49,527 bases of DNA from a virus. The notes beneath the pieces are model-generated. The model did not search any database. It was not told the DNA's origin and saw nothing but the letters and a program-made list of their open reading frames with translations. Position numbers and translations under genes: made by a program. This document shows positions 14,766-48,937 of the stretch, one piece after another (the first letter of the stretch is position 1; every line of letters begins with the position of its first letter). The stretch lies in IMG/VR virus record IMGVR_UViG_3300013010_002302, positions 1-49,527 of that record. One strand, given 5' to 3'.

Positions 14766-15446
14766 ATGTATGATATTGTATTCATAAGTTACCAAGAATC
14801 TAGTGCAGATGCTAATTACGCTGCACTAAAAGAACGCTTTCCTATTGCTACCCGTGTGCATGGAGTTAAAGGAATACATCAAGCACACATTCAAGCAGCC
14901 AAACAAGCATTTACTCCTATGATATGGATAGTTGATGCAGATGCACATATTGCAGATGACTTTGACTTTAGTTATATTCCTAACCGCAACAATAGAGATG
15001 CAGTACATGTATGGCGTAGTTGTAACCCTATTAATGATTTAGAATATGGATACGGCGGAATAAAATTATTTCCAAGACTGCATACTATTAATATGGACAC
15101 ATCTATGCCAGACATGACTACAAGTATTAGCGACAAATTTGTTGCTGTAAAAAAAGTGTCAAACATCACAGCGTTTAACACAGGAGAATTTGAAACTTGG
15201 AAAAGTGCATTTAGAGAATGTTGTAAGTTAAGTTCAAAAGTAATTGGCAGACAAAAAGACGATGAAACTAACAAACGACTACACACCTGGTGCACAGTAG
15301 GCGCCGACAGAGCTTACGGAACTTATGCTATTGCAGGCGCAAAAGCCGGTGCTGCATACGGAACTCGTAACCAAGGCAACATAGATGCACTTAAAATGAT
15401 CAACAACTTTGAATGGTTAAAGGAAAAATTTGATGAAAACATATGA
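14766..15446 (+). CDS. Glycosyltransferase-like protein (DAD motif), probably leaderless
   Basis: 226 residues, a shorter homologue of the protein at 10222: YDIVFISYQESSADANYAAL, RVHGVKGIHQAH, acidic motif V-D57-A-D59, YGGIKLFPRLH. Alignment of the first residues with that homologue supports the ATG at 14766, even though there is no ribosome-binding site and the -10 box ends six bases upstream. It contains TWCTVGADRAYGTYAIAGAK, parallel to the LMIGADVENGNWAILGARAG of the homologue. The acceptor is unknown. Confidence 0.6.
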   Translation: MYDIVFISYQESSADANYAALKERFPIATRVHGVKGIHQAHIQAAKQAFTPMIWIVDADAHIADDFDFSYIPNRNNRDAVHVWRSCNPINDLEYGYGGIKLFPRLHTINMDTSMPDMTTSISDKFVAVKKVSNITAFNTGEFETWKSAFRECCKLSSKVIGRQKDDETNKRLHTWCTVGADRAYGTYAIAGAKAGAAYGTRNQGNIDALKMINNFEWLKEKFDENI

Positions 15447-16644
15447 ACTACTTGATAGATTTGAACTGCTATATCCAACTAAAACAAAGTTAGCAGATTT
15501 GCGTAGAATTTATATTGATCAAGACTTAACAAGTATTTTTAGACTAATGCCAGATGAATACGAAGAATTGCGTAAAGCAGTAGTTGAACAAAACCTACAC
15601 AGTATTTTTAGGTTAACTAATGGCGATGAAGAATTGCGTAAAGCAGTATTAGAACAAAACCTACACAGTATTTTTAGATTAGTCGATGGCGAAGTTAATG
15701 GAGAACTTGAAGAATTGCGTAAAGCAGTATTAGAACAGAACTTACATAGTATTTTTAGACTATTGCCGGATGAACATGAAGAATTGCGTAAAGCAGTATT
15801 AGAACAGAACTTACATAGTATTTTTAGACTATTGCCGGATGAACATGAAGAATTGCGTAAAGCAATAGTTGAACAAAACCTACACAGTATTTTTAGATTA
15901 GTTGATGACGAAGATTTGCGAAAACTTGTATTAGAAGATAATATTTGGAAACTTTGGCCTATACTTGACCGCTATGTTGACACACAGTTTGTTGCAGCAT
16001 TTAAAAACTTCTTCGTCAATGAAACTAAAATTTGGGACGATTGTTTTAGTCGAGGACAAATAAAAAGTAAATTATGGATTATCAAAGAGCTTACAAAATT
16101 AAATTTAGATTTAGGTACAGTTTTCTTGTGTGCAGGATGGTATGCTACCCTTGCTACTATGCTATTTGAAAGCAAAATTAAAGTTAGTAAGATCCGTAGT
16201 TTTGATAACGATCCATCTTGCGCTAAAATTGCTGAAGTATTTAATAAACCTTGGGTTGAAGATGCTTGGCGTTTCAAGGCAAGTACAGTTGACATTATGG
16301 ATTTTGAGTGGACAGATGTTCCTGCACCAAGTGACGGAACACTGGGAAATTTCTATTATATGACATCTGGGACAGACAAGCCTATACAAATGAAAGACAA
16401 CCCTGACACTATTATAAACACAAGTTGCGAACACATTGCTAATTTTGATGAATGGTATAATAATATACCCGACGGCAAACTAGTTATTTTACAAAGCAAT
16501 GATTATTTTGAAATAGAAGAACATGTGAACTGTCATAAAAGCATTTCTCAGTTTAGTAAAAGCACACCGATGAATGAAACACTTTTTGAAGGCGAGCTTT
16601 TTTTACCAGATTATACGAGGTTTATGAAAATTGGATATAAGTAA
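15433..16644 (+). CDS. SAM-methyltransferase-like protein with seven N-terminal tandem repeats
   Basis: 403 residues from the ATG at 15433, chosen for AAAGGA (15419-15424); a TTG three bases earlier is less likely. Residues about 22-178 are seven copies of a unit of about 23 residues whose core is ELRKAVLEQNLHSIFRL, helical by appearance. Residues about 225-403 look like a Rossmann-type methyltransferase: VFLCAGW (230-236) at the motif I position, SFDNDP (256-261) as the acidic motif II, then INTSCEH and VILQSND. Classic GxGxG is missing, so activity is uncertain. It overlaps the upstream stop by 14 bases and the downstream gene starts inside its 3' end. Confidence 0.6.
   Translation: MKTYELLDRFELLYPTKTKLADLRRIYIDQDLTSIFRLMPDEYEELRKAVVEQNLHSIFRLTNGDEELRKAVLEQNLHSIFRLVDGEVNGELEELRKAVLEQNLHSIFRLLPDEHEELRKAVLEQNLHSIFRLLPDEHEELRKAIVEQNLHSIFRLVDDEDLRKLVLEDNIWKLWPILDRYVDTQFVAAFKNFFVNETKIWDDCFSRGQIKSKLWIIKELTKLNLDLGTVFLCAGWYATLATMLFESKIKVSKIRSFDNDPSCAKIAEVFNKPWVEDAWRFKASTVDIMDFEWTDVPAPSDGTLGNFYYMTSGTDKPIQMKDNPDTIINTSCEHIANFDEWYNNIPDGKLVILQSNDYFEIEEHVNCHKSISQFSKSTPMNETLFEGELFLPDYTRFMKIGYK
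15496..15966 (+). repeat. Coding tandem repeats, seven units of about 69 bases
   Basis: Seven in-frame units encode the D/ELRKxVxEQNLHSIFRL repeat. Most units are 66-81 bases with variable linkers (LPDEHE, TNGDE, VDGEVNGELE). The first (DLRRIYIDQDLTSIFRL) and last (DLRKLVLEDNIWKLWPIL) are the most divergent, as expected if the array grew from the middle. Confidence 0.9.
15709..15846 (+). repeat. Perfect 69-base tandem duplication inside the repeat array
   Basis: 15709-15777 and 15778-15846 are identical at every base, and the match continues 18 bases into the next unit. Other units differ at synonymous and non-synonymous sites. Exact identity points to a very recent duplication by slippage or recombination, so copy number may vary between related phages. 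Confidence 0.92.
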
Positions 16645-20659: not shown

Positions 20660-21783
20660 ATAAGTTTTGTACACTAACAGATAACGGTTTTAATATTGAT
20701 ACAACAGGCCGTGTAGGTCATTGTTGTATACAAAAGCGTGACCTTGTAGTTGACTGGAACACAATTGACGATATGAATGATTGGTATAAAAATAATACAT
20801 GGCTCAATTCAGTCAAACGTGATCTTAATCAAGGAATTGAAAATACTGCCTGTGAAAGCTGTTGGCATAACGAACGCAATAATAAAGAAAGTAAACGGCA
20901 CAGGGTTAACCAACAATACGGTAACACTAATCAAAGTATTCGACATTTAGATTTAAGACTTAGTAACAAATGCAATTTACAATGCAAAATGTGTAGCGGC
21001 GGCTTCTCAGACCAAATTGTCAATCTTGCACATGAATTAAAAGCAAACGGAGTAGACAACGATTTGCTACGTAGTATACCAAGCACAAAAAATATTGATG
21101 TTGGCAAGTTGCTTAATCTTGTTTTAGAATTGCCGGACTTGCAAACACTTAGATTTGCAGGCGGAGAGCCTTTTATCATGCCCGAAGTTGAAGAATTTTT
21201 ATATAAGCTAGTAGAACAAGGCAAGACTGATTTAGAGATTGAGTTTATAACCAACTGTACGAGTGCTAAAACACGCATACTAGCAGCGTTAGAAAAGTTT
21301 AAGCATGTAGAGCTAATGTGTAGTATTGACGCCGTAGGCGCCGCTTTAGAGTATCAACGATACCCTGCACGTTGGGAAACTATTGAGCGTAACTTTATAC
21401 GAATGTACAATAGTAAATGTACAGTAGGTCTTACTCCTGCTATTAGTATGCTTACATATCATAATATGACAGAGTTTTTTGCTTGGACAAACAAGTTTCC
21501 AAAAGCACGAGTGAGTTATAACGAAGTTGATTACCCTAGTTTCTTAGATTTTAGACTTATTCCACTTGATGCTAGACAAGAATTCTATAATAATTTTTCT
21601 AAAGTAATGTTTGGTGATGTAAACAATAATTGGAGAACATTTCAAACAAAAACTATGTATGAACATAGACAAATAAGTACTAAGGAACAACAGAAGTTAC
21701 AACATTACAGTAACGATATATGGGATTATAAGTGTAATGTTAAATTTTTAGATGCATATCCATGGGCAGAATCATTATTATGA
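20656..21783 (+). CDS. Radical SAM protein with N-terminal twitch-like module
   Basis: 375 residues. N-terminal ligands C5, C23-C24 and C66-ES-C69; core C106-NLQ-C110-KM-C113; GGEP 169-172; FITNCTS and MCSIDAVG as later SAM-barrel strands. It ends KFLDAYPWAESLL, without a C-terminal cluster module. The N-terminal ligand pattern C..CC..CxxC recurs in the proteins at 22767, 26933, 29035 and 31195. The start overlaps the previous stop by four bases, and the next start overlaps its stop in the same way (21780). Confidence 0.86.
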   Translation: MNKFCTLTDNGFNIDTTGRVGHCCIQKRDLVVDWNTIDDMNDWYKNNTWLNSVKRDLNQGIENTACESCWHNERNNKESKRHRVNQQYGNTNQSIRHLDLRLSNKCNLQCKMCSGGFSDQIVNLAHELKANGVDNDLLRSIPSTKNIDVGKLLNLVLELPDLQTLRFAGGEPFIMPEVEEFLYKLVEQGKTDLEIEFITNCTSAKTRILAALEKFKHVELMCSIDAVGAALEYQRYPARWETIERNFIRMYNSKCTVGLTPAISMLTYHNMTEFFAWTNKFPKARVSYNEVDYPSFLDFRLIPLDARQEFYNNFSKVMFGDVNNNWRTFQTKTMYEHRQISTKEQQKLQHYSNDIWDYKCNVKFLDAYPWAESLL

Positions 21784-22736
21784 CAAATTTATATAAAATA
21801 AAAACACGCAATAATATATTAGTAGTTGATTGGATACTTAGCAATGTATGTAATTTCAAATGCACATACTGTACACCAGATAGTAATGGCGGCGACTTGT
21901 ACTGGCCGGACATTGAGCAATGCGAAACTATAATAAAAAGAATTACCGAGCAAAGTACACACGATCATAGAATATACACAATACTTGGAGGAGAGCCTAC
22001 AGTATGGAAACACTTTACACGACTCAGTGAAATAATTAAAGAGGTCGATCCTAACAGTGTTGTAAACATTTTAACTAACGGTAGCAGAACAATTAAGTGG
22101 TGGAATAGGACTAAGACTTACTTGGACAAAGTAAGCATAAGTTATCATCACCAAGAAGCAGATGTTAATCATACAATTGAAGTTGTAAACAATATACAAC
22201 ATGATTGCCAAACTAACATTCAAATGTTGATGGATATAAATGCATGGGATAAGTGTGTAGGTATATTTGAAAAACTACGGGACAATACTGTTGTTCCTAT
22301 ACAAATTAAAAAACTACAAGTTGAATTTGGGCAACGAGATTGGATGTTATATAGTGATGAGCAACGACAATGGATGATAGAGGCTCACAAAACTACTGCT
22401 AATCGTCCTAGTACAAAACGCAACAAGACTAGTTTAGGAATCAACTGCTACTATGACGACGGTACAGTAACACAAGAAAACAATCACGACTTAATTCAAG
22501 CAGGTAACAATCGTTTTGAAGGGTGGGCATGTAACATTGGACAAGACTTGGTAGTTATCAAAGCTAACGGAGATGTTGTTCCTGCTAATGCATGCAATAA
22601 CAAAGTAATAATGGGCAATATAAAAACATCACCAGAAACTGTTAACTTATTAACTGAACCTATTATTTGTGCATATAAAGAATGTACATGCGGCAGCGAT
22701 ATAGAAATTGATAAACAAATTCAAGTCACGAATTAA
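21780..22736 (+). CDS. Radical SAM protein with five-Cys C-terminal auxiliary module
   Basis: 318 residues from the ATG at 21780, chosen for its ATGA overlap; an upstream in-frame ATG at 21762 would add six residues. Core C24-NFK-C28-TY-C31, GGEP 70-73, ISYHHQEAD. The C-terminal module has C251 (GWACN), C272, C297, C302 and C304 (CTCGSD). The same five-cysteine spacing appears at the N-terminus of the protein at 45412, and four of the five at the C-terminus of the protein at 38278. Substrate unknown. Confidence 0.85.
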   Translation: MTNLYKIKTRNNILVVDWILSNVCNFKCTYCTPDSNGGDLYWPDIEQCETIIKRITEQSTHDHRIYTILGGEPTVWKHFTRLSEIIKEVDPNSVVNILTNGSRTIKWWNRTKTYLDKVSISYHHQEADVNHTIEVVNNIQHDCQTNIQMLMDINAWDKCVGIFEKLRDNTVVPIQIKKLQVEFGQRDWMLYSDEQRQWMIEAHKTTANRPSTKRNKTSLGINCYYDDGTVTQENNHDLIQAGNNRFEGWACNIGQDLVVIKANGDVVPANACNNKVIMGNIKTSPETVNLLTEPIICAYKECTCGSDIEIDKQIQVTN

Positions 22737-24835: not shown

Positions 24836-26287
24836 ATGATTGATATGCTGCTTTGTATTATACCTAAAATTAACCCAGACGCACCTACAGTCGGGCCAGC
24901 TGTGCTTAAAGCTACTTTGCAAAAAGCAGGCTATAGTTGCACAGTTCTTGATTTAAATATTGATATGTTTAGAGAGTTTGAAAAACACGGCGACAAAGAA
25001 TACTTTTTTGAAAATGATCGTGTGTTTAAGCAAGACATTGATGATAATGACTTTTTTAGAAACGATCTTTTGCTAAAATACGAGTATGTCATTGATAGAT
25101 GGATGGAAGAATTTAAAAATATTAATCCTAAGTATATTGGCATGAGTATGCTTAGTAGTTATAGTAGAGCAATTGCAACAACACTATGCCTTAGATTACG
25201 GCAAGAGATGCCCGATACTAAAATTGTATGGGGTGGCGCAGAAGTCACAGGCCGTACAAAAAGGTATCTCGACAAAGGCATGATTGATTACTATGTTTGG
25301 GGCGACGGCGAACAAGCAATCTTAGATCTAATGGCTGGCAACTTTACTGCACCTGGCATTAATGGTAGTAGTACTCAATTATTCAGTCTTGACGATGTAG
25401 AAATACCTAATTATGACGATATTAATTGGAGTCGATATTATAAATTAAAATTTCATAAACCTGTATATGTAACTGGTAGTAGAGGATGTGTCAAGCGTTG
25501 TACGTTTTGTAACGTATACGAAATATGGCCAAAGTATACATACCGTTCAGGAGAAAGTATTGCAAAAGAAATATTTGCTGTGCGTGAAAAATATGATAGA
25601 GAAACATTTCGATTTACTGATAGTCTTATTAACGGTAGCATGAAAGCATTTAAGACACTGTTAGAAGGGTTAAGTGAATATCGTACAGAACATAACGATA
25701 ATTTTAAATGGGTAAGTCAGTGGATTATCCGTAGCAAGAAACAATTTCCCGAAGATTGGTATCGTATGATGAAAGAAGCAGGGTGCGAAGAAGTTGAAAT
25801 CGGCATGGAAAGCTTTGTACAAAAAATTCGTTATGATATGAAAAAAAAGTTTACTGACGAAGATATGTGGTTTTGTTTAGAAATGCTACAAAAATACAAA
25901 ATACCAAGCACACTTATGATGATTATAGGATGGCCTACTGAAACTGAAGAAGATCATGAGGAAACCCTAGACACAGTAAGAAAAATATATGATCTTGGAT
26001 GGGCATCTAGTAAAGCCGAAGATGGCAAAACTCCTTTAATTTGGTTTAGTTTTGCCAACACACTTATGTTAGATGACACACAGCCAGTATGGCAAGAAAT
26101 AAAAGACGATTTAGATTATTACAACGACGAAATTGATTGGAGTTATAAAGGAAATGACTTAGCAACCCGTAATAGACGATTTAAAGAAGTAAATGATCTA
26201 ATTACAGAACTTACTGGACAAAGTAAGTCTTGGATGTTACAGAAAAAAGAAGCAGACATGAAAACTAGAATGCTAGATGCATCATGA
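24836..26287 (+). CDS. B12-binding-type radical SAM protein
   Basis: 483 residues. The N-terminal half has the fold signals of a cobalamin-binding Rossmann domain (IIPKINPDAPTVGPAVLKAT, YIGMSMLSSYSRA, IVWGGAEVTGR, YYVWGDGEQAI) but lacks the DxHxxG base-off motif. The core is GSRGC218-VKR-C222-TF-C225; FTDSLING, VEIGMESF and MIIGWPTETEEDHEET are family hallmarks. Members methylate or rearrange unactivated carbons. The protein at 40114 is a paralogue. AAGGA (24821-24825) precedes the ATG. Confidence 0.85.
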   Translation: MIDMLLCIIPKINPDAPTVGPAVLKATLQKAGYSCTVLDLNIDMFREFEKHGDKEYFFENDRVFKQDIDDNDFFRNDLLLKYEYVIDRWMEEFKNINPKYIGMSMLSSYSRAIATTLCLRLRQEMPDTKIVWGGAEVTGRTKRYLDKGMIDYYVWGDGEQAILDLMAGNFTAPGINGSSTQLFSLDDVEIPNYDDINWSRYYKLKFHKPVYVTGSRGCVKRCTFCNVYEIWPKYTYRSGESIAKEIFAVREKYDRETFRFTDSLINGSMKAFKTLLEGLSEYRTEHNDNFKWVSQWIIRSKKQFPEDWYRMMKEAGCEEVEIGMESFVQKIRYDMKKKFTDEDMWFCLEMLQKYKIPSTLMMIIGWPTETEEDHEETLDTVRKIYDLGWASSKAEDGKTPLIWFSFANTLMLDDTQPVWQEIKDDLDYYNDEIDWSYKGNDLATRNRRFKEVNDLITELTGQSKSWMLQKKEADMKTRMLDAS

Positions 26288-33183: not shown

Positions 33184-33996
33184 ATGAGTAAATATGATAA
33201 GGTATTTTGGGAACCGAAAAAATACATTTCAGAAGCTTATACCAAAAACTTTGACGAACCAGTATTTGGATTAGCTGTAAAACTTTCCGGAGGTGCAGAT
33301 AGCAGTATTATATACTATACTTTGTGTAAAGAAATGCAAGAACTTGGCATTGATGTGCCGTTATATGTTGTAACGTTAGATGTAGAAACTAAAGATTGGT
33401 ATAGTCACTATGCTAAAAAAGTTATAGACTACACAGCAGAAAAAACAGGTATACGACCAAAAGAACATTTAATAAATTATCTGTCACTTCCGTGGACAAT
33501 TCCAGATTATGAAGCAGCCCAAGAAATAAATTTGGCAAAGTTAATAAACGCTAAAACAGTAAATGTTTACTATGGCGGATTAACACAAAATCCATCTCCG
33601 CGCAATATGGCAAAAGCTTGGAATAACGAAGGAATGAAGATGGAATCATATTGGGAAGCGTTTAATTTATGCAGAGAAAGTTCAGATCCAGACAGGAATA
33701 ATAATTCAACAAAACAAACAATAGGGTATGGTGCATCACCAGCTCAACAAAATTGTAATGAACCGTTTTTAGGTGTTTTACCGTTTGTACAAAAAGATAA
33801 ACGAGATGGTACTGCTGCATTATATCAGAGAATGGGTGTTACAGATGAACTATTGCCGTTAACTTATAGTTGTGAAAATGAAAAACAAGAAGAAAAAATA
33901 AAATTAGACGTAGTTAACGGCTATCAAGAATATAGTCATTGCGGGAAATGTTGGTTTTGTTTAGAAAGATCATATGCGTTTGGCCGCCTTGTATGA
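33184..33996 (+). CDS. QueC-like PP-loop ATPase 1
   Basis: 270 residues. The PP-loop is SGGADS (35-40). The C-terminal zinc-type site is C230, then H-C253-GK-C256-WF-C259 followed by LERSYAFG, the same order as in 7-cyano-7-deazaguanine synthase. QueC adenylates a carboxylate and converts it to a nitrile through an amide. No QueD or QueE is visible nearby, so the substrate may be another carboxylate. The stop overlaps the start of a radical SAM gene by ATGA, as for the second copy at 39393. Confidence 0.7.
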   Translation: MSKYDKVFWEPKKYISEAYTKNFDEPVFGLAVKLSGGADSSIIYYTLCKEMQELGIDVPLYVVTLDVETKDWYSHYAKKVIDYTAEKTGIRPKEHLINYLSLPWTIPDYEAAQEINLAKLINAKTVNVYYGGLTQNPSPRNMAKAWNNEGMKMESYWEAFNLCRESSDPDRNNNSTKQTIGYGASPAQQNCNEPFLGVLPFVQKDKRDGTAALYQRMGVTDELLPLTYSCENEKQEEKIKLDVVNGYQEYSHCGKCWFCLERSYAFGRLV

Positions 33997-37730: not shown

Positions 37731-38285
37731 TTGATTATAACAGGAAATAAAGATACTGGCCTAGCAGGAGAATTGTTTACAATATATCCTAGCGCAGTAT
37801 TTTGTAGCAGGAGTACTGATTTTGAATTAACAAAGATTCAAGATCAAGAAAGAGTTGCAGAACTTTGTTTAGACCACGATATTATTATAAATTGTTCAGC
37901 ACTTTGGAGATTTGAACAAACTAACTTACTAGACGCGATTTACAAAAAGTGTGTTAAGCATAATCATAGTCCTCATATAATTTGTATTGGTAGTACAACT
38001 GATCGTGTTAAGAACGGCAAACCTTGGCGATATAATGCAGAAAAGAAAGCATTACGAGACTATTCAAATACACTTTCTTTAGGCGGAGTATGGGATCAGT
38101 ATCCTAAAATTAGTTATGTTAGCTTTGGCACATTATCAAACAATCAAGAAAAACATCCTAACCGAAAATGTTTAAACATAAACGAAGCCGCTGAGTATAT
38201 AAAATGGGTAATTGACCAGCCGACATATGTTAATATAAATGAAATAAGTATAGATCCTATGCAAGATGAGAAATGGTATGACTGA
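37731..38285 (+). CDS. SDR-like (NAD(P)-dependent) protein, TTG start
   Basis: 184 residues. The frame opens only at 37713 and has no ATG before residue 1; TTG at 37731 starts MIITGNKDTGLAGEL, a shortened nucleotide-binding loop. IIINCSA stands at the NNAG position, IGSTTD supplies the catalytic Ser, and Y101-NAE-K105 is the YxxxK pair; VSFGT follows. It is short for the family (about 250), with the C-terminal substrate region reduced. GGAG (37716-37719) could serve the TTG start. It may act on a sugar or keto intermediate. Confidence 0.55.
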   Translation: MIITGNKDTGLAGELFTIYPSAVFCSRSTDFELTKIQDQERVAELCLDHDIIINCSALWRFEQTNLLDAIYKKCVKHNHSPHIICIGSTTDRVKNGKPWRYNAEKKALRDYSNTLSLGGVWDQYPKISYVSFGTLSNNQEKHPNRKCLNINEAAEYIKWVIDQPTYVNINEISIDPMQDEKWYD

Positions 38286-38300
38286 AGATTTAAAATGGAG
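38278..38300 (+). repeat. Copy B of the 23-base direct repeat
   Basis: Start of the radical SAM gene, matching 37697-37719 with a single T/G difference at the tenth base. The distance between copies is 581 bases and holds exactly one gene. Confidence 0.75.
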
Positions 38301-39393
38301 TAATTATGATTTTTCAAAGATACCCTTCGACGATATCGTTAGTGTTGGTCAGCGTACTTTGTTGTACCGTGACTTATTTACTATTAGCTGGTTACTTGGC
38401 CGCTTCTGTAACTACAAATGCTCCTACTGTTGGCCTTATGCCCGCAGTGATCGTAAAGACCACCGTCCTACCGAACTATGTTTAAAAACAATAGATGAAA
38501 TAAAAAGACAAGCTCGCGGAAACGGATTTAACAGTTTCCATTTTAGTTTAAGTGGTGGTGAGCCTACCTTTCATCCAGGCTACCTTGACATACTAAAACA
38601 TCTTGCTGATGATGTAGGTAGCACTAATTATACTAGTGTACACATGACAACAAACATGTCTCGCAATATGAAGTGGCACGAAGAATATGTCGAAGCAGTT
38701 AAACCATTCCACCGGGCAAGTATTACAGCAAGTTTGCATACAGAACATGTAAACAGTATTGAGAAAATGCAAGACTTTGCAGACAAATTAATCTTCTGTC
38801 AAGAACACGATGTACAAGTTACAATTAATATGGTAATGGTACCAGACTGGTTTGAAAGAGATTGGGAGAACGCATTGTTCTTTCATAATCAAGGTATAAA
38901 TGTAACGCTAAAACCGCAAAGCGACCCTACAGCAAGTCGGGTAGTAGATGGGTATAAACCAGAAGACTTAAAAAAGTTATACAATGGCATGCCACAAATG
39001 GCGTATACCGAAGTTAAGCGTAAATGGAATAATCGTCCAAAACAAAACTTTGATTTACCTCCGAACACACATGGATCAAACGACAAAAGTGTTCCTTGGC
39101 ACATGGCAGTAGAATTAGAAGATTCGAAAGGCGATAAGTATTATATAGACCAAGCAGAACGGTTTAATGCCTTTAATTTTAATAACTTTGAAGGATGGAA
39201 TTGTAACGCAGGATATAGTGGCATTATTATACGAGAGCCTGACGGTTCAGTAAAACGAAGTTATTCTTGTCACGATGTGCCTCTTGGCAATATCGAAACA
39301 GGGTTTCAGTTGTTTAAAGCACCTAAGACTTGTATAACTAAAAGCTGCGTAAGTAGTGCCGACTCAAAGATTCCAAAGAGGAAAATTACTTAA
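38278..39393 (+). CDS. Radical SAM protein with C-terminal auxiliary module (four Cys)
   Basis: 371 residues from the ATG at 38278; this start is supported by the duplicated copy at 37697, and an in-frame ATG at 38266 would add four residues. Core C44-NYK-C48-SY-C51; SGGEP with GGEP at 93-96; ITASLHTEH. C-terminal module C309 (GWNCN), C331 (SYSCHD), C352 and C357, parallel to the protein at 21780 except that its fifth cysteine is Ser here. AAGAGG near the 3' end precedes the next gene. Confidence 0.84.
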   Translation: MTEDLKWSNYDFSKIPFDDIVSVGQRTLLYRDLFTISWLLGRFCNYKCSYCWPYARSDRKDHRPTELCLKTIDEIKRQARGNGFNSFHFSLSGGEPTFHPGYLDILKHLADDVGSTNYTSVHMTTNMSRNMKWHEEYVEAVKPFHRASITASLHTEHVNSIEKMQDFADKLIFCQEHDVQVTINMVMVPDWFERDWENALFFHNQGINVTLKPQSDPTASRVVDGYKPEDLKKLYNGMPQMAYTEVKRKWNNRPKQNFDLPPNTHGSNDKSVPWHMAVELEDSKGDKYYIDQAERFNAFNFNNFEGWNCNAGYSGIIIREPDGSVKRSYSCHDVPLGNIETGFQLFKAPKTCITKSCVSSADSKIPKRKIT

Positions 39394-40094
39394 TGCTTTA
39401 TCATAACAAAGATAAAACTATGTCAGTTGATATTGATATACCAGATACTTATAATAGTGTTTGTGTCAATATGAGCGGCGGCGCTGACAGTGCAATTTTA
39501 TTTTTTATGATTGCAAAGTATATAAAAGAGTATAAACCTAATATTAGATTATCTGTTGCAACCTTAAATGAAGCTAACAAAAACTACTATATGGGTAAAA
39601 ATACTAGAGACATTATAGACTTCGTAATTAAAGAATTAGATTTTAAAAACTTTGATACTCACTACATTTATTATGCAGAGAAGCAATCACGAGAAGTAAT
39701 AGATAATTTTATAGCTAAAATGATTTCTAGTAATATAATTGATCTATTTATAGGAGGCACTTCAATGCCTCCTCTGTGTGAAGGACCAGCACTAGCAGAA
39801 GTAGAAGGTAAAGAAGTAGATATTAAAGAACATTCAAATGCACAAATAACGCATGATGAAAGAGATTCTCTGCCCATATGGAATTCGAAAAAAACTATGT
39901 ATAAGCCTTTTGTAAGAATTGACAAAAGTTTTATTGCAGATATGTATTACTTACACAACTTACAAGACACAATGTTTCCTAAAACTAAAAGTTGTACAAC
40001 TTTAGCAACTAATCATATGTTTGTAGGAGACTTCGACCATTGCGGGAAATGTTGGTGGTGCCTTGAACGAAAATGGGCATTTGGAAAACTATAA
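39393..40094 (+). CDS. QueC-like PP-loop ATPase 2
   Basis: 233 residues. SGGADS at 28-33; zinc-type ligands C201, C217, C220 and C223 in HCGKCWWCLERKWAFG, nearly the same C-terminal block as the copy at 33184 (HCGKCWFCLERSYAFG). The middle sequences differ strongly, so the two are old paralogues or separate acquisitions and may act on different carboxylates. TAATG overlap with the gene before it. The last codons (FGKL, stop) are duplicated just downstream. Confidence 0.7.
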   Translation: MLYHNKDKTMSVDIDIPDTYNSVCVNMSGGADSAILFFMIAKYIKEYKPNIRLSVATLNEANKNYYMGKNTRDIIDFVIKELDFKNFDTHYIYYAEKQSREVIDNFIAKMISSNIIDLFIGGTSMPPLCEGPALAEVEGKEVDIKEHSNAQITHDERDSLPIWNSKKTMYKPFVRIDKSFIADMYYLHNLQDTMFPKTKSCTTLATNHMFVGDFDHCGKCWWCLERKWAFGKL

Positions 40095-43675: not shown

Positions 43676-44411
43676 TTTAGCTATATTAGGATTAAGCAGA
43701 AGCGGAACTACGGTTGTTGCACAGTCGTTAGTTGAAACACTTTCGAATAATTACGACTATGTAAATTCTAAATATCAAGGAGAGATAAGCAATGTATTTA
43801 GAGATTACTTTTTTATTGGCGAAAACAAAAAAGTAAAAGACTATGTTGACGGCGCATATATTAAAACATTTGATATTATAGATGACTATTTACAAGGATC
43901 TAGATTATACCAAAATATCAAAATGGATCCTAAACAGTGCAGAAAAGAAATGTCTAATAGGATGGATCTTTTAAACCAAATGATAGACAGCAAATTTAAA
44001 TCTATTATTAAGGTACATCCTTATGCTATTTGGAAAAACTATCAACAACCATATGTAATAGAAACATTATCTAAATTAAACTATATATATGTAAGAAGAG
44101 AAAATAAGTTAGAGCATTTTTTAAGTTTTGTTATCGCTAGAGAAAGTGGAATATATCACACTAATAATCCATTTGAAGAATTTCCAGAAAACATTAAAGT
44201 TACAACTGAACATATGGAGTTATTTCAAAATTATCTAGTTGCCGAAAAATGGTTTTTAAAATTTGCAAACATAGTAGAAACAGTTGTTTATGAAGATTTA
44301 GGTGAGATCAATAAAGAAGGATTTGTAAAAAAATTACCATATACAAAACCAAAAATAGAGTATATAATTAACAAATACGAAGTGCAGGAATATATAAAAT
44401 GTTTAAAGTAA
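43656..44411 (+). CDS. Sulfotransferase-like P-loop protein
   Basis: 251 residues. GLSRSGTT (12-19) followed by VVAQSLVETL is the 5'-phosphosulfate loop and helix; YVRRENKLEHFLSFVIARES fits the 3'-phosphate-binding Arg/Ser segment of family members. Normal length for a small sulfotransferase. PAPS-dependent transfer to a hydroxyl of a sugar or Tyr is the usual reaction; the acceptor here is unknown. It overlaps its upstream neighbour by 20 bases and the downstream radical SAM gene by 13. Confidence 0.65.
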   Translation: MLHPKNNLAILGLSRSGTTVVAQSLVETLSNNYDYVNSKYQGEISNVFRDYFFIGENKKVKDYVDGAYIKTFDIIDDYLQGSRLYQNIKMDPKQCRKEMSNRMDLLNQMIDSKFKSIIKVHPYAIWKNYQQPYVIETLSKLNYIYVRRENKLEHFLSFVIARESGIYHTNNPFEEFPENIKVTTEHMELFQNYLVAEKWFLKFANIVETVVYEDLGEINKEGFVKKLPYTKPKIEYIINKYEVQEYIKCLK

Positions 44412-45412
44412 GAGAAGTTCATTACGACATTACAAACATGTGCAATGCAGCTTGTCCGCAATGTGTGAGGACAAATCCTCTTACAGGTAAAATGCATGAG
44501 TATATAAAGAAGTCTGAACTATCGTTAGAAGACTTTCAACAAATATCATCCCCGCAATTTTTAAAACAATTAGAATATATTTACTTTTGTGGAAATTACG
44601 GAGATCCATTAGTAGCAACCGACTTGCTAGCTATACTAGATTATGTATGGGATTGTAATCCTAAGCTTAGTGTTAAGGTACATAGTAATTGTAGTTTACG
44701 AGATCACGGATGGTGGAAGAAATTTGCTCAGCTTACTAGTGATAAAAAGTTTACTTTAGTTGCAAGTGTTGACGGTGCAAGTCAATCTACACAAGAATTA
44801 TATAGAGTAAATACAAACTTTGAACGCATTATAAATAATCTTAAAACTTTTATCAGTTATGATGGTAAAGTTGAATGGAGATTTATAGTGTTTAAACATA
44901 ACGAGCATGAAGTCGAATTAGCTGAAGATATTAGTAAACAAATAGGTTGTATTAATTTTCGTAGTTATAGTAGTAATAGACAGTTTCCAAATGGCAAATT
45001 TAAGTATAATTTTAACGGAGAAACTAAGTATCTTGAAAAACCTTCATACGAAGTTGATAGTAAATTTAATGATAGAAAAACTATAGAATTTGAGCAACTA
45101 GAATCTTCAACTGCAAAGATAGATTGTATAGCAAATAAAACTCGTAGTATCTTTATTGACTTTGAAGGCAATGTCTTGCCCTGTTGTCATTATGGCATTA
45201 GGCTTTATACAAATAGACGTAATACCAAAGATGTAAATAATGATACAGTTGTGCAAGAGACTATAGATAAATTCGGTAATGATAAATTTAATGCATTAGA
45301 TTTAGGATTAGAAACTGCCTTGGCTAACTGCGGAAAGTTTTTAGATAGTTTAGTACCTTATTGGAACAAAGGTGATCCCTTAGTATGCAAAATGATATGT
45401 GGTAAAAAATAA
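44399..45412 (+). CDS. Radical SAM protein with C-terminal SPASM-like module
   Basis: 337 residues. C15-NAA-C19-PQ-C22-VRTNPL; C64-GNYGDP; ASVDGASQSTQELYRVNTNF. The C-terminal module shows DCIANK, LPCCHYG and final Cys residues (LANCGKF, CKMICGKK). It has FKHNEHEVE where relatives have FEHNxHQV. The SPASM region contains a charged insertion absent from the tandem pair at 18618/19637. The stop overlaps the next ATG by one base. Confidence 0.85.
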   Translation: MFKVREVHYDITNMCNAACPQCVRTNPLTGKMHEYIKKSELSLEDFQQISSPQFLKQLEYIYFCGNYGDPLVATDLLAILDYVWDCNPKLSVKVHSNCSLRDHGWWKKFAQLTSDKKFTLVASVDGASQSTQELYRVNTNFERIINNLKTFISYDGKVEWRFIVFKHNEHEVELAEDISKQIGCINFRSYSSNRQFPNGKFKYNFNGETKYLEKPSYEVDSKFNDRKTIEFEQLESSTAKIDCIANKTRSIFIDFEGNVLPCCHYGIRLYTNRRNTKDVNNDTVVQETIDKFGNDKFNALDLGLETALANCGKFLDSLVPYWNKGDPLVCKMICGKK

Positions 45413-46416
45413 TGTGGATAATATTAACAGATCAAGGTATTAGACAAATACTGTTGGCTGACTTAAAGTTTTATACTAGCGTTAAAGGATGGGCATGTAA
45501 TACTAGTAACTATGTTTATAATTTAATTATGAATGATGAATCGTTTGTTAGCAATACTATATGTAGAGCAATTGACGATTATCCTATTATTGATATTAAA
45601 ACAACTCCTAAATTTAATAGAGAATACGCAGTTTGTCCTAAAGAAAATTGCTACTGTGGAATGGATATCGGTATTCCAAAAGGTAAAACTATAGACTATA
45701 TTATCGAACTAAAAAAACAATTTAATAGTATTGACAATGTAAAAACTATCCCTTGGTATGACAACGAAACTATTCTAGCGTTTGGCCTAAGCGATTTTAT
45801 TACTAATCGAATGGCACATGTTGATTGGTTCTTAGGAAAGCGTTGTAATTTTGATTGTGTATATTGCTCTCCCAGCATACATGATAATGTAAGTGCATAT
45901 CCTACACTAGAAAAATTAATTGATTATTACAACTATCTAACTGATACTATATCATCAAACGAAAAGAACCAAAAAACTATAAGTTATATCTTCGGCGGTG
46001 GAGAACCTACTCTTATACCCGAGTATTTAAATTTTTTAGAACACATTAAAAATGATAATAAGTTTAATAGTGAGATAAGAACACTAACTAATTTAACCGG
46101 AAGTCCCGAAAAGTTATATCGATTAAATCAATTAAGTGATGTAACTTTTAGTGTTCATCTTGCATACATGACAGATAAGTTTATAAGCAAGGTAGATAAA
46201 TTCTTAGCAAAGCGAGATAATACATCTAAATCTCTAACTGTAAAGTTTATGTATGACAAACTACATAGTGATAAAATTGATAAGATAATACAAGTATTAC
46301 GCAATCATACTAATCTAACTTATAGTGTAACACCTCTGCATGATAAATCTGATAAGAAATTATATCAATATACAGATGCTGATAAAGAATACTTTAAGTT
46401 ACGAGGTAAATTATAG
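45412..46416 (+). CDS. Radical SAM protein with N-terminal (permuted) auxiliary module
   Basis: 334 residues. Residues 1-90 carry C29 (GWACN), C51, C75, C80 and C82 (CYCGMD), matching in order and spacing the C-terminal module of the protein at 21780. The core follows: C145-NFD-C149-VY-C152, GGGEP 195-199, FSVHLAYM. The protein stops at LYQYTDADKEYFKLRGKL, the point at which relatives continue into their auxiliary module. It is a circularly permuted arrangement. It has no upstream start to suggest a frameshift or fusion remnant. Confidence 0.84.
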   Translation: MWIILTDQGIRQILLADLKFYTSVKGWACNTSNYVYNLIMNDESFVSNTICRAIDDYPIIDIKTTPKFNREYAVCPKENCYCGMDIGIPKGKTIDYIIELKKQFNSIDNVKTIPWYDNETILAFGLSDFITNRMAHVDWFLGKRCNFDCVYCSPSIHDNVSAYPTLEKLIDYYNYLTDTISSNEKNQKTISYIFGGGEPTLIPEYLNFLEHIKNDNKFNSEIRTLTNLTGSPEKLYRLNQLSDVTFSVHLAYMTDKFISKVDKFLAKRDNTSKSLTVKFMYDKLHSDKIDKIIQVLRNHTNLTYSVTPLHDKSDKKLYQYTDADKEYFKLRGKL

Positions 46417-46467: not shown

Positions 46468-47901
46468 ATGGCATCATTACTAGCACTTTTAGCAGGAACA
46501 TTTTACGGATTAATAATTGGCATCCTGCCAGGTGCAGGGGCAACTACGGGGTTAATATTTGTATTTTCTTTCATTACTTTATTTCCAGATCCTTATCTAG
46601 CAGTTATATTTGTTATGGCAGTTGTAGCTGCAAGCACAACAGGCGACACATACACAGGTGTACTATTGGGCATACCTGGGGCAAACTCAGCCGCGGCAAC
46701 AATGATAGATGGATTTCCTTTAGCACTACAGGGTAAAGCAACATATGCAATTAGTGCCGCAGTTACTACAAGCACACTAAACGGATTGTTATGGGGGTCA
46801 CTTACATTCTTTTTTCTTCCTTACTATACACAATTAATAATGATATTTGGAGTGCCTGAACTATGGGCATTTACAATGTTAGCAATGGTATGTGTAACTT
46901 TTGTAACAAATAAGTTTTGGTTTAGAAGTATGATTGCGTTATGCATTGGATTAGGTGTGGGCCTAATAGGAGTTGATCCTAGTACAAATGCTGACAGGTG
47001 GACAGGTGGTTGGGAATATTTAGGTGACGGTGTACAATTAATGCCGTTAGTTGCTGGATTGTTTGCTATACCTGAATTACTTGACGGACTTAAACAACGT
47101 GCTAACACTGCAATGCCCGAATTAGCAAACAGTGTGCAAACTAAGCAAGGCATACTTGCTGTATGGAACAACAAGTGGGACGCATTGCGTGGAGGATTCA
47201 TTGGTGCGTTCATTGGCTTATTACCAGGACTAGGAGGAGCAGTTGCAGATTGGATGGCATATAGTTCGACAGTTGCAAGTCATCCTAAAGATACATTTGG
47301 TAATGGAAATATCAAAGGTGTTATAGGACCTGAAGGTGCTAACAATGCACAGAAAGCAACTAGTATGATTCCTACAGTATTATTTGGAATACCAGGAGCA
47401 AGTTTTGCGGCTATTGTAATAGGCTTATTTGCTTACTTAGACTTTGAATTAGGTACCTTAGAACTAGCACAGGACACTAAATTCTTTGATAGTATGTTAT
47501 ATGGCTTTATGTGTGCAACCGTGCTTGTGGGCGCTATATGCTTGCTGACAACGCCAATTATAGCACGAATAGCGCAAATACCCTACAAGTATTACTTTCC
47601 AGTGTTGTTAGGCTTTATAGTGCTTGCATGTGTACAGTACACAGGCGGTTGGGAAGATTACTTTATGCTTGCTGTATGCAGTGTAGTTGGGCTACTAGCA
47701 AAGCGTTACAAATTTAGTAGACCTGCTCTGCTATTTGCTTTTATTTTATTTGACAGAATAGAAGCATTAACAGTACAGATGTTAGGACTTTATACAGTTG
47801 AAAAACTGTTAGATCGCAATATATTCTTAGTACTAGTTGTTATAACGGTTATAACATTAGTATGGGGATTAACTAATAAAAGGAAAATAGATTATGCGTA
47901 A
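46468..47901 (+). CDS. tctA: TctA, large membrane subunit of tripartite tricarboxylate transporter
   Basis: 477 residues with about ten to twelve hydrophobic segments. Family motifs: YGLIIGILPGAGATTGL at the first helix pair, TTGDTYTGVLLGIPGANSAA, TMIDGFPLALQGKA, and the second-half repeat FIGLLPGLGGAVADWMAY and LFGIPGASFAA. Length is close to the usual 500. TctA is the inner-membrane channel that imports tri- or dicarboxylates with a periplasmic TctC and a small TctB. Here TctC follows but no TctB-like gene is present. It has no clear ribosome-binding site. Such a transporter is unusual phage cargo. Confidence 0.88.
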   Translation: MASLLALLAGTFYGLIIGILPGAGATTGLIFVFSFITLFPDPYLAVIFVMAVVAASTTGDTYTGVLLGIPGANSAAATMIDGFPLALQGKATYAISAAVTTSTLNGLLWGSLTFFFLPYYTQLIMIFGVPELWAFTMLAMVCVTFVTNKFWFRSMIALCIGLGVGLIGVDPSTNADRWTGGWEYLGDGVQLMPLVAGLFAIPELLDGLKQRANTAMPELANSVQTKQGILAVWNNKWDALRGGFIGAFIGLLPGLGGAVADWMAYSSTVASHPKDTFGNGNIKGVIGPEGANNAQKATSMIPTVLFGIPGASFAAIVIGLFAYLDFELGTLELAQDTKFFDSMLYGFMCATVLVGAICLLTTPIIARIAQIPYKYYFPVLLGFIVLACVQYTGGWEDYFMLAVCSVVGLLAKRYKFSRPALLFAFILFDRIEALTVQMLGLYTVEKLLDRNIFLVLVVITVITLVWGLTNKRKIDYA

Positions 47902-48937
47902 ATTATTACTAGGACTTACATTTGCGATGGTTGCGAGTGTAGCACAAGCAGATTATACAATGGTAGTACCACAGAAGCCAGGCGGCGGCACAAGCGTTTG
48001 GGCAGAAATTGTTGCTAAGGAATTAGAAAAATATCTAGGTGAAGATATTAACATTAAGCACATTCCAGGTGCAAGAGATATTCCGGGATTTAATGCATGG
48101 CACAATGAGATGCGAGATGACGATAAAGTTATTATGGTATCACATGGCGGCAATGGAGTTTCTTTTTTACAAGAAAATGTTGACTACGATTACCGTCAAT
48201 ACGAAAGTGTCGGACTTATGAATCTAAACATTATTGCAGGCAAGCGTGTTGGTGCTGATATGAGCCATCCAAGTTTTGCCGCAGGTAGTGGACAAACTCC
48301 AGAAGCATATGCATTTACAATGTTAATCTGTGGTCCACAAGATACAGTAAAATCATACATTGGTTGTTTCAAAAAAAATGTTACATGGGTTAAAGGTATG
48401 AGCGGAAGTGAAAGACGTCTTGCATTTAAGCGTGGCGAACTTAACGGTACTAGAGAAAATCCAGCCGCATATAAGAAACATGTAGAATCTGATACAAATG
48501 CAGAAGTATGGTTTCATCACGGTATTCTACAAGCAGACGGTTCACATGCAGACGATCCAAACTATCCAGGCTTTCAGTTTGAAGAACTATATAAAGCAAA
48601 ATGGGGTGCATATCCAAGTGGTGAATTCTATGATGCATATAAACTTGTTAAGAGTTTTAGAGATGGCATGCAAAAAGCACTATGGGTAAACAAAGGCAAT
48701 CCAAATGCAAAAGCATTACAAACTGCACTAACTAAAATGTCAACTAATGCAGACAGCCGTGCAATTATTGAAAAGAAAGTTGGACAATACGATTGGAAAA
48801 TTGGTGCTGAAGGCAATGCACACAGAGATACATTAATGACTTTAGTTACTGTTGATGCACTAGAAGATCTTGTACTATTTAATACAGAAGCACTTGGCCT
48901 TAAGAGTGTATTTAAAATTGAACTAGGCCTTAAATGA
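47894..48937 (+). CDS. tctC: TctC-like periplasmic solute-binding protein
   Basis: 347 residues. The first 20 residues are a Sec signal peptide ending VAQA before DYTMVVPQ. The binding-protein signature is KPGGGTSVWAEIVAKELEKY, then IKHIPGARDIPGFN, then SHGGNGVSF, as in the Bug/TctC family. Two Cys in CGPQDTVKSYIGCF may form a periplasmic disulfide. It captures the carboxylate and delivers it to TctA. Translation is coupled by an 8-base overlap to tctA; AAAAGGAAAA in the tctA 3' end is a good ribosome-binding site. Gene order is the reverse of the common tctC-tctB-tctA. Confidence 0.82.
   Translation: MRKLLLGLTFAMVASVAQADYTMVVPQKPGGGTSVWAEIVAKELEKYLGEDINIKHIPGARDIPGFNAWHNEMRDDDKVIMVSHGGNGVSFLQENVDYDYRQYESVGLMNLNIIAGKRVGADMSHPSFAAGSGQTPEAYAFTMLICGPQDTVKSYIGCFKKNVTWVKGMSGSERRLAFKRGELNGTRENPAAYKKHVESDTNAEVWFHHGILQADGSHADDPNYPGFQFEELYKAKWGAYPSGEFYDAYKLVKSFRDGMQKALWVNKGNPNAKALQTALTKMSTNADSRAIIEKKVGQYDWKIGAEGNAHRDTLMTLVTVDALEDLVLFNTEALGLKSVFKIELGLK

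Follow-up and report, generated by a model that had tools for sequence, protein, structure and literature searches.

The gene at 45412 of the window (the whole stretch of 49,527 nucleotides of viral DNA analyzed here) encodes a protein, P0001, that is probably a circularly permuted member of a large family of radical SAM/twitch-type enzymes of marine phages. Its extra Fe-S domain stands at the front of the protein and that of its relatives at the tail, so that P0001 resembles a common phage enzyme that was naturally cut and rejoined. In the relatives, the chain runs from the barrel through a variable linker and a short beta hairpin to the module and a tail; in P0001, it runs from the hairpin through the module and a tail helix to a new linker and the barrel, and the new termini correspond to the variable linker that joins the barrel to the hairpin in the relatives. 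We use the term circular permutation for this architecture; the trees described below do not prove descent from one ancestral gene over descent from two paralogs.

In the SPASM/twitch enzymes of known structure the twitch domain is C-terminal (PMC9012708, PMC6231123), and reviews treat SPASM and twitch domains as C-terminal extensions (PMC9012708). It is this general description of the radical SAM auxiliary-cluster module that gives a permutation its weight: if true, a natural permutation would mean that the module behaves autonomously, with docking that is independent of chain connectivity and of the order of synthesis. No report of such a permutation in a radical SAM protein with a SPASM domain was found in the open-licence literature, an absence that is no proof, and the broader open-licence literature on permutation returned only lipoate ligases and unrelated topics.

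Module and barrel of P0001

The features of P0001 and of the radical SAM genes compared with it are collected in Table 1.

Table 1. Positions in the window of P0001, its parts, and related radical SAM genes.
Feature	Position	Strand	Evidence or remarks
Canonical paralog P0002, barrel then module	21780..22736	+	translation, BLASTP, AF2
P0002 module, residues 247-312	about 22518-22715	+	BLASTP
Second canonical paralog	38266..39393	+	module about 39178-39384; relatives search, canonical-module profile
Upstream radical SAM gene	44399..45412	+	own intact C-terminal SPASM-like region; Pfam SPASM 0.0023 at 245-279
Permuted radical SAM gene, P0001, 334 aa	45412..46416	+	translation, ORF lists, full-length orthologs L001, L002, L003
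P0001 residues 1-21, beta hairpin and helix	45412..45474	+	AF2 model
P0001 residues 26-90, twitch-like auxiliary-cluster module GWAC...C...CPKENCYCGMDIGIPK	45487..45681	+	canonical-module HMM, hhalign
P0001 module ligand candidates	C29 (45496), C51 (45562), C75 (45634), C80 (45649), C82 (45655)	+	sequence
P0001 residues 94-106, helix following module	45691..45729	+	AF2, pLDDT above 90
P0001 residues 107-131, new module-barrel junction	45730..45804	+	between two homologous segments
P0001 residues 132-334, radical SAM barrel	45805..46413	+	Pfam, AF2, hhalign
P0001 barrel motifs CNFDCVYC and GGGEP	codons 45844-45867 and 45994-46008	+	sequence

P0001 has the defining features of the radical SAM superfamily: the CxxxCxxC motif (C145-C149-C152) lies in a barrel with a complete (beta/alpha)6 pattern in the AlphaFold2 (AF2) model, and Pfam Radical_SAM (PF04055) matches above its cut-off (6.1e-10). 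The last barrel helix (residues 322-330, AF2) lies just ahead of the position of the relatives' linker. The sequence-only reading held that the core ends where relatives start their module, and this agrees with the chain found here: P0001 stops at the variable linker, and no second module was found after the barrel in the DNA between the stop codon and the next gene at 46468. The module is not C-terminal to the barrel, since it occupies residues 22-97 and the barrel residues 132-334. Pfam SPASM (PF13186) gave no match in P0001, and P0002 reached 17.1 bits against it, below the cut-off of 21.5.

Ahead of the module, the AF2 model places strands at residues 2-6 and 9-12 and a helix at 15-21 (pLDDT 84-94). 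Their counterparts in P0002 are two strands (221-225, 230-233) and a helix (235-240) of the AF2 model, and in canonical relatives these elements lie between barrel and module. The helix that follows the module resembles, by eye only, the C-terminal tail of the proteins of loci L118 and L096. The start of P0002 at 21780, an internal ATG within the ORF listed at 21762, is plausible.

In the sequence TAATG, the stop codon of the radical SAM gene upstream overlaps the start codon of P0001. This neighbor, which is conserved in two other contigs that carry the permuted form (L001 and L002), was considered as the donor of the P0001 module and rejected because it has kept a C-terminal SPASM-like region of its own.

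The cysteine pattern noticed earlier in the two proteins is reproduced exactly by translation: C29, C51, C75, C80, and C82 of P0001 are spaced by 22, 24, 5, and 2 residues, and C251, C272, C297, C302, and C304 of P0002 by 21, 25, 5, and 2. Both modules also share the start GWACN and the end CxCGxD (CYCGMD and CTCGSD, respectively). The position of C82 is not universal, as the family of the paralog at 38266 has CVSSAD there, and the conserved set is thus C29, C51, C75, and C80. In twitch sites such as that of SkfB, one cysteine lies ahead of a beta hairpin, one behind it, and the rest near the following helix (PMC6231123). P0001 fits this layout (C29, strand 35-39, C51, C75, and C80/C82 near helix 83-87), which it has in common with the single-cluster twitch enzymes MoaA, BtrN, anSME, EpeE, and SkfB, where two or three cysteines stand near the helix.

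Sequence homology and predicted structure

P0001 shares its barrel subfamily (VDW..GKRCNFDC) with canonical marine-phage radical SAM/twitch-like proteins (the 38266, P0002, and CCG-motif families; phrog_13987). Their module, GW.C ... C ... CxxxxC ... D.xxPK, is that of P0001 and is often found in the same phage genome, but it is C-terminal in the canonical family and N-terminal in P0001. In 107 of the 107 canonical proteins collected the module is C-terminal. For the 38266 paralog, whose family is abundant in marine phage contigs, the best 80 of 594 relatives were kept.

BLASTP of P0001 against P0002 returned exactly two significant matches, in swapped order: the barrel (residues 132-328 on 11-199 of P0002, 3e-10) and the module (residues 25-90 on 247-312, 3e-5). 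A point against the permutation is the weak identity of the module to individual canonical modules (31% to that of P0002 over 70 positions). A profile of 102 canonical C-terminal modules, drawn from IMG/VR loci related to P0001, P0002, and the 38266 paralog and built without permuted members, scored 37.0 bits on P0001 residues 1-110 (33-37 bits with the canonical-module HMM). Against 2007 ORFs, this profile recovered the permuted N-termini of the window, L001, and L002 at an E of about 1e-9, and the divergent N-terminus of L003 at 0.01. By hhalign, residues 9-97 of P0001 align with 97% probability (E 7.5e-11) to the canonical C-terminal module, and residues 132-329 with 99.9% probability (E 1.3e-34) to the canonical barrel, the two matches being opposite ends of the same canonical profile. 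The proposal that one domain is fused at opposite ends of the barrel is thereby supported.

Two short canonical proteins of about 320 residues, from L190 and L192, each match both P0001 segments in swapped order in phmmer searches (barrel 2.1e-9 and module 1.4e-7 for L190; barrel 1.1e-11 and module 2.4e-6 for L192). Both halves of P0001 therefore find the same relatives, swapped, and neither half is duplicated, as expected of a circular permutant. The hairpin ahead of the module and a DIGIPK motif are also common to P0001 and the canonical proteins. Rotating P0001 did not raise its best single-domain score against the full-length canonical HMM, because the variable linker splits the match. As judged from these alignments, residues 22-97 of P0001 share homology with the twitch-like module at the C-terminus of the phage radical SAM family, and its twitch-like cysteine layout corresponds to theirs by descent.

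Between barrel and module, the canonical proteins of the family of L118, L061, L114, and L098 have an additional conserved motif, GRPCCG..CL, possibly with a further metal site.

The AF2 models of P0001 (pLDDT 82.4, pTM 0.82) and P0002 (pLDDT 85.2, pTM 0.84) are of similar quality, with lower values in the center of the P0001 module (residues 41-70, pLDDT 51-62). The alignment used for P0001 (A4) contained 47 module fragments and 47 barrel fragments from relatives, all correctly aligned, as separate entries, and coevolution therefore gives no support for docking. Alignment of secondary-structure elements between the P0001 and P0002 models scored 39.6 in native order and 53-55 when P0001 was rotated at residues 81-120. 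Once rotated, the two models share the same order of elements.

In order-dependent Foldseek searches of the PDB, P0002 aligned over about 300 columns of MoaA, EpeE, and anSME. P0001 typically matched with its barrel alone, over about 220 columns, to the barrel of viperin-like, anSME, and TigE structures. Against the viral library, P0001 likewise gave mainly barrel-length matches of low rmsd, and a few longer ones with rmsd values of 9-14 A. Barrel-only matches are what a permutation predicts, as far as these models go, and they do not in themselves show docking.

Origin and alternative explanations

The sequence of P0001 contains the motifs of both a twitch-type site and a cluster that cleaves SAM. 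On these motifs, P0001 is likely an ordinary SAM-cleaving enzyme with a single auxiliary cluster. If its parts dock as in the relatives, the CxxxCxxC cluster would cleave SAM to give the 5'-deoxyadenosyl radical, and a single auxiliary Fe-S cluster, with C29, C51, C75, and C80 as ligands and C82 as a further or substitute one, would bind substrate or pass electrons.

The simplest history would begin with the duplication of a canonical gene in a phage rich in radical SAM genes. The two copies would have been joined in frame and then trimmed to leave the module of the first copy and the barrel of the second. We think it reasonably probable that P0001 is a natural permutant that was born in a phage by this route, has kept the geometry between barrel and auxiliary cluster, and has its auxiliary domain synthesized first.

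In two phages, pairs of different canonical radical SAM/twitch-like genes, L195:365-1261 with L195:1204-2313 and L196:393-1298 with L196:1238-2104, stand head to tail and overlap at their ends, an arrangement that could give rise to a permuted gene.

An identical architecture would result from a different history, a chimeric fusion in which the C-terminal module of one radical SAM paralog was joined ahead of the module-less barrel of another. Both parts of P0001 fall inside the canonical family, and their best-supported neighbors differ: the barrel groups with F047+F004 in the core tree (96/96), and the module with FCCG/S184, of the CCG-motif clade, in the module tree (96/92). The long runs of radical SAM paralogs in these phages could, moreover, recombine. 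However, AU tests on the alternative placements of core and module (p 0.33 and 0.22) did not reject a shared placement of either part, and for the core data in the smaller data set this placement is cost-free. P0001 also retains the hairpin ahead of its module, and its break points are those expected from a permutation. We consider such a chimera rather unlikely, though a serious competitor to the duplication of a single gene.

N-terminal placement of a twitch/SPASM-type module is already known from NCBIfam NF033640 (N_Twi_rSAM), in which a module of the auxiliary-cluster type precedes the barrel, as in P0001. This family, with many members in the window (six of the proteins tested score above its 170-bit cut-off), is also the best NCBIfam match of P0001, which could be read as a divergent member without a recent permutation. 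We find this very improbable: the match covers the barrel only (residues 132-243) at 44.3 bits against the cut-off of 170, the N_Twi N-terminal profiles score -0.4 and -1.0 bits on the P0001 module against 37.0 for the canonical profile, and hhalign of the module to the N_Twi N-terminal region gives a probability of 0.4%. The two N-terminal modules are unrelated at the profile level. Because its match is confined to the barrel and its module is not matched by the N_Twi profiles, P0001 is a separate case with a different module.

The methylthiotransferases MiaB and RimO and the lipoyl synthase LipA are radical SAM enzymes in which an auxiliary cluster domain or ligands lie toward the N-terminus. 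To our knowledge, their folds and motifs are unlike the twitch module, and none of them is a permuted form of a C-terminal version.

Fixed cysteine spacing can make short segments look similar by chance, but a chance likeness between unrelated cysteine-rich regions is scarcely credible here, since the profile score of 37.0 bits was reached by none of 3000 shuffles of residues 1-110 with all cysteines fixed (maximum 22.3) and by none of 3000 with G26, W27, G83, and D85 fixed as well (maximum 33.9), and the flanking hairpin and DIGIPK motif are shared too. Together with the profile-profile alignment, this places the homology of the modules beyond mere cysteine spacing. The window is a metagenomic virus contig, in which fragments might have been joined or a start wrongly called; such an artefact is extremely improbable, as the same frame and order recur in three further, separate contigs at identities as low as 54%, and the overlap with the upstream gene is also present in L001 and L002.

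Distribution and genomic setting

Four virus contigs of IMG/VR were found to carry the permuted form: the window, L001 (99%), L002 (80%), and L003 (54%). The order of module and barrel is the same in all of them, and the form is thus conserved over at least 46% sequence divergence, with the five module cysteines and the barrel motif invariant among the orthologs. Between the window and L002, whose synonymous sites are close to saturation, dN/dS is about 0.06 for the whole gene and 0.13 for the module, which indicates that the gene is under purifying selection. A profile of the permuted form, run against 36 contigs, gave full-length matches only in contigs already known to carry it. In contigs of cellular genomes only general barrel relatives were matched, and a tblastn search of the INPHARED phages with the permuted protein gave no match. 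There are two canonical paralogs in the window and two beside the permuted gene in the L002 contig, and the coexistence of the two forms implies that the permuted gene is an addition and not a replacement.

The gene lies in a region where a set of tail-fiber genes precedes a large number of modification genes, many of them radical SAM genes; one 35-kb block (11147-46416) contains about 18 of the latter. Two of them resemble B12-binding types, at 24836 (confirmed by Pfam) and at 40063 (by sequence resemblance). The block is similar to the pelagimyophage host recognition cluster, in which glycosyltransferases are accompanied by radical SAM cassettes (PMC7029224). Dense arrays of this kind in marine phages may be places where new enzyme architectures originate. 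From the setting, we would guess that P0001 helps to make or modify a surface group, a small molecule, or another compound in the course of infection.

The permuted gene is directly followed, at 46468-48937, by a TctA gene (tripartite tricarboxylate transporter, Pfam 1.5e-93) and by a gene for what may be a TctC-like binding protein, the latter without a Pfam match. In the 99%-identical region of L001, a gene resembling the major tropism determinant stands in place of these TctA/TctC-like genes and adjoins the permuted gene on the other strand.

Next to radical SAM genes, at 33184-33996 and 39393-40094, lie two weak QueC-like ATP-pyrophosphatase relatives that possibly belong to a modification pathway. 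The protein encoded at 15430-16644 has about seven copies of a 22-23-residue repeat (ELRKAVLEQNLHSIFRL) ahead of a methyltransferase-like region, without a Pfam match; its homolog has fewer repeats in L002 and none in L003.
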